Assembly: GCF_004168285.1 (NCBI RefSeq)
Contig: NZ_SEWF01000032.1
Span: forward strand, 1-58,713
Direction of reading: 5' to 3'
Length of the DNA: 58,713 nt
Source: Emticicia agri
GTDB lineage: Bacteria > Bacteroidota > Bacteroidia > Cytophagales > Spirosomataceae
Shown: piece by piece, positions 22,403-24,737 of the stretch
Layout of the letters: the number at the start of each line of letters is the position of its first letter
How positions within the stretch are numbered: the first letter of the stretch is position 1
Position numbers and translations under genes: made by a program
The notes under the pieces: model-generated
Database searches by the model: none
The model's input: only the letters and a program-made list of their open reading frames with translations
Told to the model about the DNA's origin: nothing

Positions 22403-23695
22403 TCAAATTCCGAAAGTTTCTTTCACTTTCTCAACAAAATCTAATTTTTCCCAGGTAAATAGTTCAACATCTACAACTTTCTCACCTTCAGGTCCTTTAA
22501 ACACCTTTCTAACCCACTCTGACTCACGACCCATGTGTCCGTAAGCAGCCGTTTCAGAGTACATCGGATTACGCAATTTCAAACGTTGTTCGATAGCATA
22601 AGGACGCATATCAAATATTTTCTCTACAATCCTTGCAATCTCTCCGTCCGAAAGTTTTTTACCGTTTTCGCCTTTTACTTTAGCAGTGCCATAAGTATTT
22701 ACAAAAATACCACAAGGTTTAGCTATACCAATCGCATAAGATACCTGCACTAAAATTTCGTCGCATACGCCGGCAGCCACCAGATTTTTAGCAATATGGC
22801 GGGTAGCATAAGCAGCAGAACGGTCAACTTTTGATGGGTCTTTGCCTGAAAAAGCACCACCACCGTGCGCACCTTTTCCGCCATAGGTATCAACAATAAT
22901 TTTACGACCTGTTAATCCTGTATCACCATGCGGGCCACCTATCACAAATTTTCCGGTTGGATTAATGTAATAAGTAATCTGGTCGTTAAACAATTTACGT
23001 AACGATGGCTTTAACTTAGCCTTTACACGAGGAATCACGTAATTAATGATGTCTTTGCGGATAGTCGCCAACATTGCTTCGTCTGTACCGAAATCATCGT
23101 GTTGAGTCGAAACTACAATGGTATCTATTCTAACAGGCTTGTTAGTATCTGTATATTCAATCGTTACCTGAGATTTTGCATCAGGTCTCAGGTACTTAAT
23201 ACGTTTGTTTTCACGACGAATGCTGGATAATTCCTGTAAAATTTTGTGTGCCAGATCTAAAGCCAGAGGCATATAGTTGTCGGTTTCACGAGTAGCATAA
23301 CCAAACATCATTCCCTGGTCTCCTGCACCTTGGGCATCAGCTTTTTCTTCAAAATTTTTCTCATCTGCTGTGCGGTCAACACCACGGTTAATATCATCGG
23401 ATTGTTCATGAATCGCTGATAATATACCGCATGAATTGGCTTCGAACATATACTCTGATTTAGTATAACCAATTTTTGAGATTACATCACGGGCAATTGT
23501 TTGTACATCAAGGTAGGTTTTAGTTTTTACTTCACCTGCCAAAACCACTTGACCTGTTGTTACGAGTGTTTCGCACGCAACTTTAGAAGAGGGGTCAAAC
23601 GCCAGAAAATTATCAATAAGAGCGTCAGAAATTTGGTCAGCAACTTTGTCCGGGTGACCTTCCGATACTGATTCGGAAGTGAATAGGTACGCCAT
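22403..23695 (-). CDS. metK: S-adenosylmethionine synthetase
   Basis: 430 residues, a usual length for the Bacteroidota form. It makes S-adenosylmethionine from ATP and methionine in the cytosol, the source of methyl groups for the cell. Family signatures are clear: [17 protein letters not shown] at the N-terminus (ATP and metal binding), [26 protein letters not shown], and the P-loop-like [15 protein letters not shown]. The start at 23695 gives the standard [10 protein letters not shown]. About 180 bases of unusual, structured leader precede it (23700-23878), suggesting post-transcriptional regulation. Confidence 0.98.
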
Positions 23696-23699
23696 AAAT

Positions 23700-23878
23700 C
23701 TTATTTAGTTTTAAATGATTTGCAAAAAGTGTATGCTAAAACTCTATGCTATGCAGAAGGAAAAAAGAAACTGTTTTTGACAAACAAGCATCTGAAAACT
23801 TGTTGCCCGCATCTTTTTACCACCGTAGTGTTTCTACTCGGTTGGATTTCCGCAAAAGGGAATTTCTTGATACTTCTA
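23700..23878 (-). promoter_or_regulatory. Structured 5' leader of metK, candidate cis-regulatory RNA
   Basis: On the minus strand a less AT-rich block (about 23780-23875) sits in an otherwise AT-rich spacer. It contains an 11-bp hairpin with small bulges (23820-23845; GTAG/CTAC on top, CC/GG pairs below, loop AAACA), the stretch GCGGGCAAC, a second hairpin AACAAG/CTTGTT (23783-23804) and two copies of AGATGC about 21 bases apart. A promoter ends just upstream. Position before metK makes a SAM- or methionine-sensing riboswitch plausible, but the sequence does not fit the SAM-I consensus, and no known family is claimed. Confidence 0.55.
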
Positions 23879-23911
23879 CAAAGTACGGCATTTAGCAAAA
23901 CAAATGCAAAA
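23879..23911 (-). promoter_or_regulatory. Probable promoter of metK
   Basis: On the minus strand TTTTG (23907-23911) is followed 21 bases later by TACTTTG (23879-23885). The spacing fits the Bacteroidota -33/-7 promoter; the -7 box is one base short of TAnnTTTG. The implied transcript start near 23873 coincides with the start of the structured leader. Confidence 0.45.
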
Positions 23912-24063
23912 TTTAGCATGGAAATATATCTATAATACATTATTTGCCTACCGAAATTATCTTTAAATAAATTCTATAATGGAAAATTTATCTATAAAAA
24001 CAGCATGAATACCGATATTTTCACCTTTATGTATTCTTCTGTAAAACCTTTGCATTTACAAAA
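23912..24063. other. AT-rich spacer, nothing recognised
   Basis: Between the metK promoter and the terminator of the NlpC/P60 gene. No plausible gene or strong structure is seen. Confidence 0.5.
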
Positions 24064-24103
24064 AAACAAAGAGTTACTTTGTAGATAAAGCAACTCTTTG
24101 TTT
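24064..24103 (-). terminator. Rho-independent terminator of the NlpC/P60 gene
   Basis: A 12-bp perfect stem (24064-24075 with 24092-24103), with a further 4-bp pairing inside the 16-base loop, followed on the minus strand by a run of T. It lies 50 bases past the stop codon. Confidence 0.8.
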
Positions 24104-24153
24104 GGGAAAATAAATATTTTCTAAACGAATATTTGGCAAAAATACTATTTACC

Positions 24154-24675
24154 TTATTTCAGACTATCTATTACACGTCGGATTCCTGCAAAACGTGAAG
24201 CGTAATATTTTTCTTTTAAATAGCTGATACTAACCCCGGTTTTGCAGGCTGAATGAATAAATTTCAGGCCATTTTTATCAGATTCCAGCACAATACCTAC
24301 ATGAGATACCTCATCTTTTCTGTTAGCATTGATTTTGAAAAATATCAAATCGCCGGGTAGCGCATGTTCGGGCGTTGTCTGATAGCCCATTTTAAAAAGG
24401 TCTATACTACGATGGCTGAGTTTCATGCCAAATTTGGCAAATACGTAGTTTACTAAACCGGAACAATCAAATCCTTTGAGTGTTTTGCCGCTCCATAAAT
24501 AGCGGATGCCAATAAGCTTTCGGGCGAATCGTTGTAGGTCGTCGGTTAATTTTGAATTACTCTTTTTATCGCTTACCTCGTTCGGTGAAGTTGTGGGGGA
24601 TTTTGGAAGGTCATTAGCTTTGGAAGCCAATGATGAAACGACTAACAACGAACCCAATACATATTTTTTTAACAT
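24154..24675 (-). CDS. Secreted NlpC/P60 (C40) cell-wall hydrolase
   Basis: 173 residues from ATG 24673-24675; the frame continues upstream but this start gives a proper signal peptide (MLKKYVLGSLLVVSSLASKA). The catalytic domain has the Cys nucleophile in LKGFDCSGLVNYVF, the first His in EVSHVGIVLE and the third residue in LKFIHSACKTG. Family members cut the gamma-D-Glu to meso-diaminopimelate or related peptide bonds of peptidoglycan. A short polar linker (residues about 20-45) joins signal and domain; there is no SH3 or LysM targeting domain. It is a single-gene unit with its own terminator. Confidence 0.9.
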   Translation of the reverse strand: MLKKYVLGSLLVVSSLASKANDLPKSPTTSPNEVSDKKSNSKLTDDLQRFARKLIGIRYLWSGKTLKGFDCSGLVNYVFAKFGMKLSHRSIDLFKMGYQTTPEHALPGDLIFFKINANRKDEVSHVGIVLESDKNGLKFIHSACKTGVSISYLKEKYYASRFAGIRRVIDSLK

Positions 24676-24737
24676 TATATATTGATTTGGTTCTGCTACA
24701 AAATTAGACAAATACAATGCCTAAGTCCAAAAAAACG

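Follow-up and report, generated by a model that had tools for sequence, protein, structure and literature searches.

Several described RNAs stand close to the leader analysed here. Variant SAM-I/SAM-IV RNAs without an internal loop in P2 have been reported (Weinberg et al. 2010, PMC2864571, in the part available to us), the accessible part of PMC6890682 gives SAM-I/IV a P4 helix, and a SAM-I/IV crystal structure exists (4L81), the sequence of which is quoted in the available part of PMC5393176. The literature covered by our search, outside which most subscription papers fell, contained no description of the leader analysed here. Here we analysed a stretch of 58,713 nucleotides of Emticicia agri (the window), in which a structured leader at 23763-23878 on the minus strand lies between a conserved promoter-like box and metK. 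We found that this leader is in all probability a SAM-I/IV riboswitch that gives metK negative feedback (roughly 0.92). The features of the region are as follows.

22403-23695, minus strand: metK, S-adenosylmethionine synthetase, 430 aa (TIGR01034 equivalog and Pfam domains)
23731-23744, minus strand: candidate anti-P1 strand GAGUUUUAGCAUAC, pairing with 23873-23870 and 23866-23860 in the predicted unliganded fold
23763-23878, minus strand: SAM-I/IV riboswitch aptamer (Rfam RF01725 SAM-I-IV, model positions 1-99 of 99)
23767-23771, minus strand: PK2, tail strand GUUUC (permutation test)
23779-23807, minus strand: P5 hairpin, GGCAACAAG at 23807-23799 with CUUGUU(U)GUC at 23788-23779
23809-23813, minus strand: P1 3' strand GAUGC, within the first AGATGC copy (alignment and letters)
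23820-23845, minus strand: P3 with its CCAACC...GGUGG core, hairpin CCAACCG...CGGUGG
23830-23834, minus strand: PK2, P3 loop strand GAAAC, complementary to 23771-23767
23848-23862, minus strand: P2 hairpin without internal loop, UUCC at 23862-23859 with GGAA at 23851-23848
23869-23873, minus strand: P1 5' strand GUAUC, pairing with GAUGC at 23813-23809
23879-23885, minus strand: plausible -7 box TACTTTG
23907-23910, minus strand: plausible -33 box TTTG

The identity of the gene behind the leader is clear. Its product scored 505.9 bits with the TIGR01034 equivalog in an NCBIfam search (cut-off 309.4) and contained three S-AdoMet_synt domains in a Pfam search; the ATG of metK lies at 23695. A covariance-model scan of the window returned one gathering-level match, which was RF01725 at 23763-23878. 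This match ran end to end (E 1.7e-5 in 601 nt); its 42.2 bits exceed the gathering score, 41.1, by just 1.1 bits. The window aptamer also scored 85.1 bits with R1, a covariance model made from 28 aligned sequences, a value that is not independent, as R1 was built partly from the window aptamer itself. The first-pass annotation of this DNA had proposed a structured leader before metK that did not follow the SAM-I layout, and had called it a divergent or undescribed riboswitch. The structured leader is upheld by the RF01725 match and by covariation, and the SAM-I model (RF00162) found no match at the metK leader, in agreement with the departure from SAM-I. "Divergent" is a fair description of the leader; "undescribed" is not supported, as RF01725 was matched above gathering. 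A match to a known Rfam family was one of the outcomes that the annotation had named as refuting, and it was obtained here, if by the narrow margin given above.

The folding energy of the leader was unremarkable on its own (z -1.39; 16 of 200 shuffles folded at least as well), and it is the covariance-model match together with covariation that places the leader above chance. An entirely undescribed class of metK leader, matched by RF01725 through chance, would fit this energy and the narrow clearance of the gathering score, but we give it next to no credence: the match is end to end at the E value given above, RF01725 scores of other metK leaders reach 53.8 bits (locus L015), and P1, P2, P5 and PK2 covary as SAM-I/IV requires. 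It is also highly improbable that the leader is, strictly speaking, a SAM-I or SAM-IV riboswitch. Such riboswitches have the same superfamily core, but at E <= 1e-3 the SAM-I model matched this genome on contig C12 only and the SAM-IV model (RF00634) nowhere, and reading of the alignment gave neither a P2 internal loop nor a P4 between P3 and P1. In place of P4, a short unpaired joint was read in 28 of 28 aligned rows; the Rfam consensus structure line of RF01725 is also without P4, which is thus not required for RF01725. The SAM-I copy on contig C12 is followed after 115 nt by an ORF that matched MetX models best in NCBIfam, below their cut-offs. SAM-I is common in the family, being present in 193 of 200 genomes. 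We read the layout of the metK leader as SAM-I/IV because P2 is uninterrupted, P5 follows P1 and PK2 is formed, on the basis of the available parts of PMC2864571, PMC6890682 and PMC5393176.

To the family match we added an alignment of 28 sequences, the window included. Locus L030, which scored 37.3 bits, below the cut-off, and has a different gene, was dropped; L025, the 5' end of which is missing, was left out of alignment A1 and of the anti-P1 duplex and permutation tests, and odd tails of L028 and L029 blur the P5 columns of A1. The SAM-I/IV structure was paired in 94.8% of cells, and 11 of its 20 pairs changed on both sides. Its covariation score was 0.347. Shuffles gave 0.207, none of 500 reaching the observed value, and sliding the partners gave no more than 0.122; over this sliding control the tested structure has an advantage, having been derived from the window and from the layout in Rfam. 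The further-pair-type measure was not above shuffles (472 of 500 as high). Covarying stems among homologues, which the annotation had proposed to look for, were found in P1, P2 and P5 of these 28 sequences. P1 was paired in 99.3% of cells, with three of five pairs changing on both sides; for P2 the figure was 84.3%, and all five modelled pairs changed on both sides; and the GGC/GUC base of P5 was paired in 98.8%, two of its three pairs changing on both sides. P2 in the window has four Watson-Crick pairs, the fifth modelled pair being A-A. The main helix of P3 was 100% paired, one inner pair being paired in 81.5%, and its six core pairs were invariant in 28 of 28. Because these six pairs never vary, covariation in P3 is uninformative either way, and the changes sit in P1, P2 and P5.

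The motifs listed in the earlier annotation were all present on the minus strand: GCGGGCAAC at 23810-23802, a second hairpin at 23845-23820, and two copies of AGATGC at 23814-23809 and 23793-23788. A bulged hairpin of 11 bp had been listed as well; the hairpin exists, and is P5, at a length of 9 to 10 bp. The loop of P5 holds most of the second AGATGC. By eye, within a subclade of four genomes, this second copy was present in L010, read AGATGT in L011 and was absent from L009. Both AGATGC copies could pair with GUAUC, and we rejected the second as an alternative P1 strand as it was not conserved by eye.

From lineage to lineage, the two strands of the pseudoknot PK2 changed together, as in AGAAC/GUUCU and GAGCG/CGUUC. 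Permuting these strands 20,000 times gave the lowest attainable p value, 5e-5, both for 28 representatives and for the 11 that precede metK; for the 17 non-metK representatives p was 0.005. These tests used a tail window that was narrowed after a longer one had given p 0.0055 over 29 sequences, and the complementarity of both PK2 and the anti-P1 strand had been spotted by eye in the locus listing before statistical testing.

The genome of the window has one RF01725 match, and 11 of 11 genomes of the genus, this one included, matched RF01725 at E <= 1e-3, nine passing the cut-off and two falling below it; each had a single match, which stood before metK. RF01725 was found in 32 of 200 genomes of the family sample, 37 of 291 of the order sample and 34 of 395 of the phylum sample, in scans run with stricter filters that lost some weak matches. 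The family sample held 34 matches, 30 of which were taken as loci and four left out. Downstream of 24 of the 30 first-fetched loci (own included) lies metK, 56-140 nt after the aptamer match, and three more loci, from the order sample, precede metK (L136, L138 and L141). Among 80 named metK loci, one of which holds no leader (L085) and a few of which hold short ones, model R1 matched two (L053 and L061), both shortly before metK. No similar leader was matched on plasmids. Loci L111-L114, L143-L150 and L151-L159 stood outside the sequence comparison. The metK leaders lie at the edge of detection by the Rfam model, so related leaders may be missed.

The borderline Rfam score and the short P2 of the window's subclade would be compatible with a divergent SAM-I/IV relative that still controls metK but binds a changed ligand, such as SAH or a different adenosyl compound. 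We consider such a change of ligand improbable, given that the six core pairs of P3 are the same in 28 of 28 sequences, that 24 of the 30 fetched loci have metK as their gene, and that the 11 genomes of the genus have one match each, always before metK. In line with the earlier annotation, the leader probably senses SAM.

Promoters of Bacteroidota have a -33/-7 consensus in which the -7 element is TAnnTTTG. Ahead of the leader, TTTG at 23910-23907 is followed, after 20 nt, by the 8-mer GTACTTTG at 23886-23879, the first half of which departs from TAnnTTTG. All 24 metK loci have a TTTG that ends 4-6 nt short of P1, and in 16 of them a second TTTG lies further upstream at a spacer of 20-21 nt. 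A Bacteroidota-type promoter here, as first suggested from a fitting -33/-7 pair, is plausible. A sigma-70 scan of 23600-24200 gave 5 sites versus 2.4 expected, and the proposed promoter was not among them.

We propose that the SAM-I/IV leader would act on metK in the following way. Transcription would start just before P1, and the P1-P2-P3-P5 aptamer, closed by PK2, would form a SAM-I-type pocket for SAM. Abundant SAM would stabilise the aptamer together with P1 and lower metK expression; when SAM is scarce, the 5' strand of P1 would pair with the anti-P1 strand at 23744-23731 and metK would be expressed. Control in the window may be translational or by termination. We infer SAM as the ligand, the OFF logic and the presence of the same kind of switch in the window.

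Predicted folds contain such an alternative helix. The predicted ligand-free fold of the window forms an anti-P1 helix of GUAU/AUAC and GAAAUUC/GAGUUUU, with an energy of -41.7 kcal/mol versus -38.1 kcal/mol for the aptamer when enforced without PK2 and ligand. P1 was nearly absent (at most 0.05) from the unconstrained folds of 24 of 24 metK leaders, so the energy model, without PK2 and ligand, disfavours the aptamer throughout. An anti-P1 helix was predicted in 9 of the 11 genus leaders at nearly the same distance from metK, and at least six anti-P1 pairs were predicted in 17 of 24 metK leaders, some with the coding region. Permutation of the anti-P1 strand against P1 and J1/2 gave p 5e-5 for 28 representatives and the same for the 17 non-metK ones, and was borderline for the 11 metK ones (p 0.041). 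When compared with shuffled tails, the anti-P1 duplex reached p <= 0.05, uncorrected, in 8 of 28 loci; in the window, the duplex did not stand out from the shuffles (z -0.14, p 0.41). A tail-swap test in the genus was modest (p 0.007), and the leaders of the window's subclade showed no preference for their own tails (mean -8.0) over sister-subclade tails (mean -9.0). Over the pooled family, the anti-P1 switch has good support; for the window it is no more than plausible, and on these modelled folds we would put the chance that the helix operates there somewhat short of even.

An antisequestor/sequestor scheme is a described platform of translational riboswitches (PMC2258182, in its available part). 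The anti-P1 strand and its 3' flank, taken together, paired with the start-codon region in a test of 13 of the 17 non-metK representatives (p 5e-5). This test left out L121, L123, L132 and L137, in which the first listed ORF lies at 100, 296, 85 and 7 nt, respectively, and used a start for L128 that was set by hand at an internal ATG. In the window, we found no hairpin that switches the metK start codon, the accessibility of which hardly differed between the two predicted folds. A start-proximal hairpin, AAAUC...GAUUU within 23724-23696, was rejected as the switch because it is present in both predicted states. A scan of 23600-24200 found no intrinsic terminator between the aptamer and metK. 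The only one in that scan was a minus-strand terminator-like hairpin of 17 pairs with a T run, at 24103-24064; it precedes the metK promoter and probably ends the gene at 24154-24717.

Small ORFs follow the aptamer in other genera of the order, as well as in some of the family. One group encodes 77-110 aa and follows SAM-I/IV aptamers by 46-59 nt (L120, L124, L014, L017, L117 and L135), and its members are weakly alike, with 18-41% identity to the first. Six small proteins compared with Pfam, and three of the six compared with NCBIfam, gave no family above cut-off. Among 18 genomes of its family, one small protein was present in 9, which belong to a single genus, and each of the nine copies lies just downstream of an RF01725 match from the order sample. 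A second group after SAM-I/IV aptamers (L125, L128, L131, L133 and L134) shares the motif PFDL..ECY.ILK...LTM.QAE.LLGLRN..DHS.PK.YG; its member L134 matched no Pfam or NCBIfam family above cut-off, and PK2 was not evident by eye in the five loci. The aptamers of L014 and L017 have TTCGA in J1/2 versus CAAGA in most others and a P1 of GUAUU/AAUAC, with the anti-P1 strand changing in step (TCGAAATAC and CGGAATAC); from these letters, they are possible pocket variants. L132 and L140 scored 53.2 and 46.7 bits with RF01725 and only 32.0 and 22.6 bits with model R1, and these aptamers stand before large ORFs that we take, from their appearance, to encode NhaC-type transporters. L013 has two SAM-I/IV matches on one contig, at 1086-1191 and 1501-1597, about 300 bases apart, which possibly form a tandem or precede neighbouring small genes.

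The short P2, variable P5 and low Rfam score could also be read as marks of a distinct SAM-I/IV subtype with a deviant ligand preference or platform, the same aptamer running a small-protein regulon in the sister genera. We think this unlikely; if true, that regulon would point to an undescribed SAM-controlled process. Because the leader belongs to the known SAM-I/IV family as a divergent, still recognisable member, it is in all likelihood an ordinary feedback switch, not a new class. Such a switch could account for how this bacterial group controls SAM synthesis by feedback; two classes of SAM riboswitch seem to serve two genes within one genome, SAM-I a metX-like gene and SAM-I/IV metK. From the comparative set come an expression platform of SAM-I/IV RNAs that can be tested and a group of small SAM-I/IV-linked proteins without a known family.

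The SAM-binding core motifs of SAM-I (RF00162) are shared with the window leader, whereas the P2 internal loop and P4 of SAM-I are absent from it and the SAM-I model gave no match. SAM-IV (RF00634) resembles the leader in P5 and PK2, as given in the available part of PMC6890682, but the leader is without the P2a/P2b split and has no conserved PK-1 by eye. In the window, the P2 loop could form a few A-U pairs with the P3-P1 joint, a candidate PK-1 that we rejected because, by eye, L009 does not retain these pairs. Compared with RF01725 SAM-I/IV, the window leader has a low score, a P2 cut to four Watson-Crick pairs and no counterpart of the P4 found in the accessible part of PMC6890682, and in its subclade P5 is longer, at 9-10 bp, and bulged. 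In common with RF01725, the leader has P1, a P2 without internal loop, the AACC...GGUG core in P3, P5 after P1, and a PK2 that joins the P3 loop to the 3' tail, a connection that is also read in the 4L81 sequence as quoted in the available part of PMC5393176.
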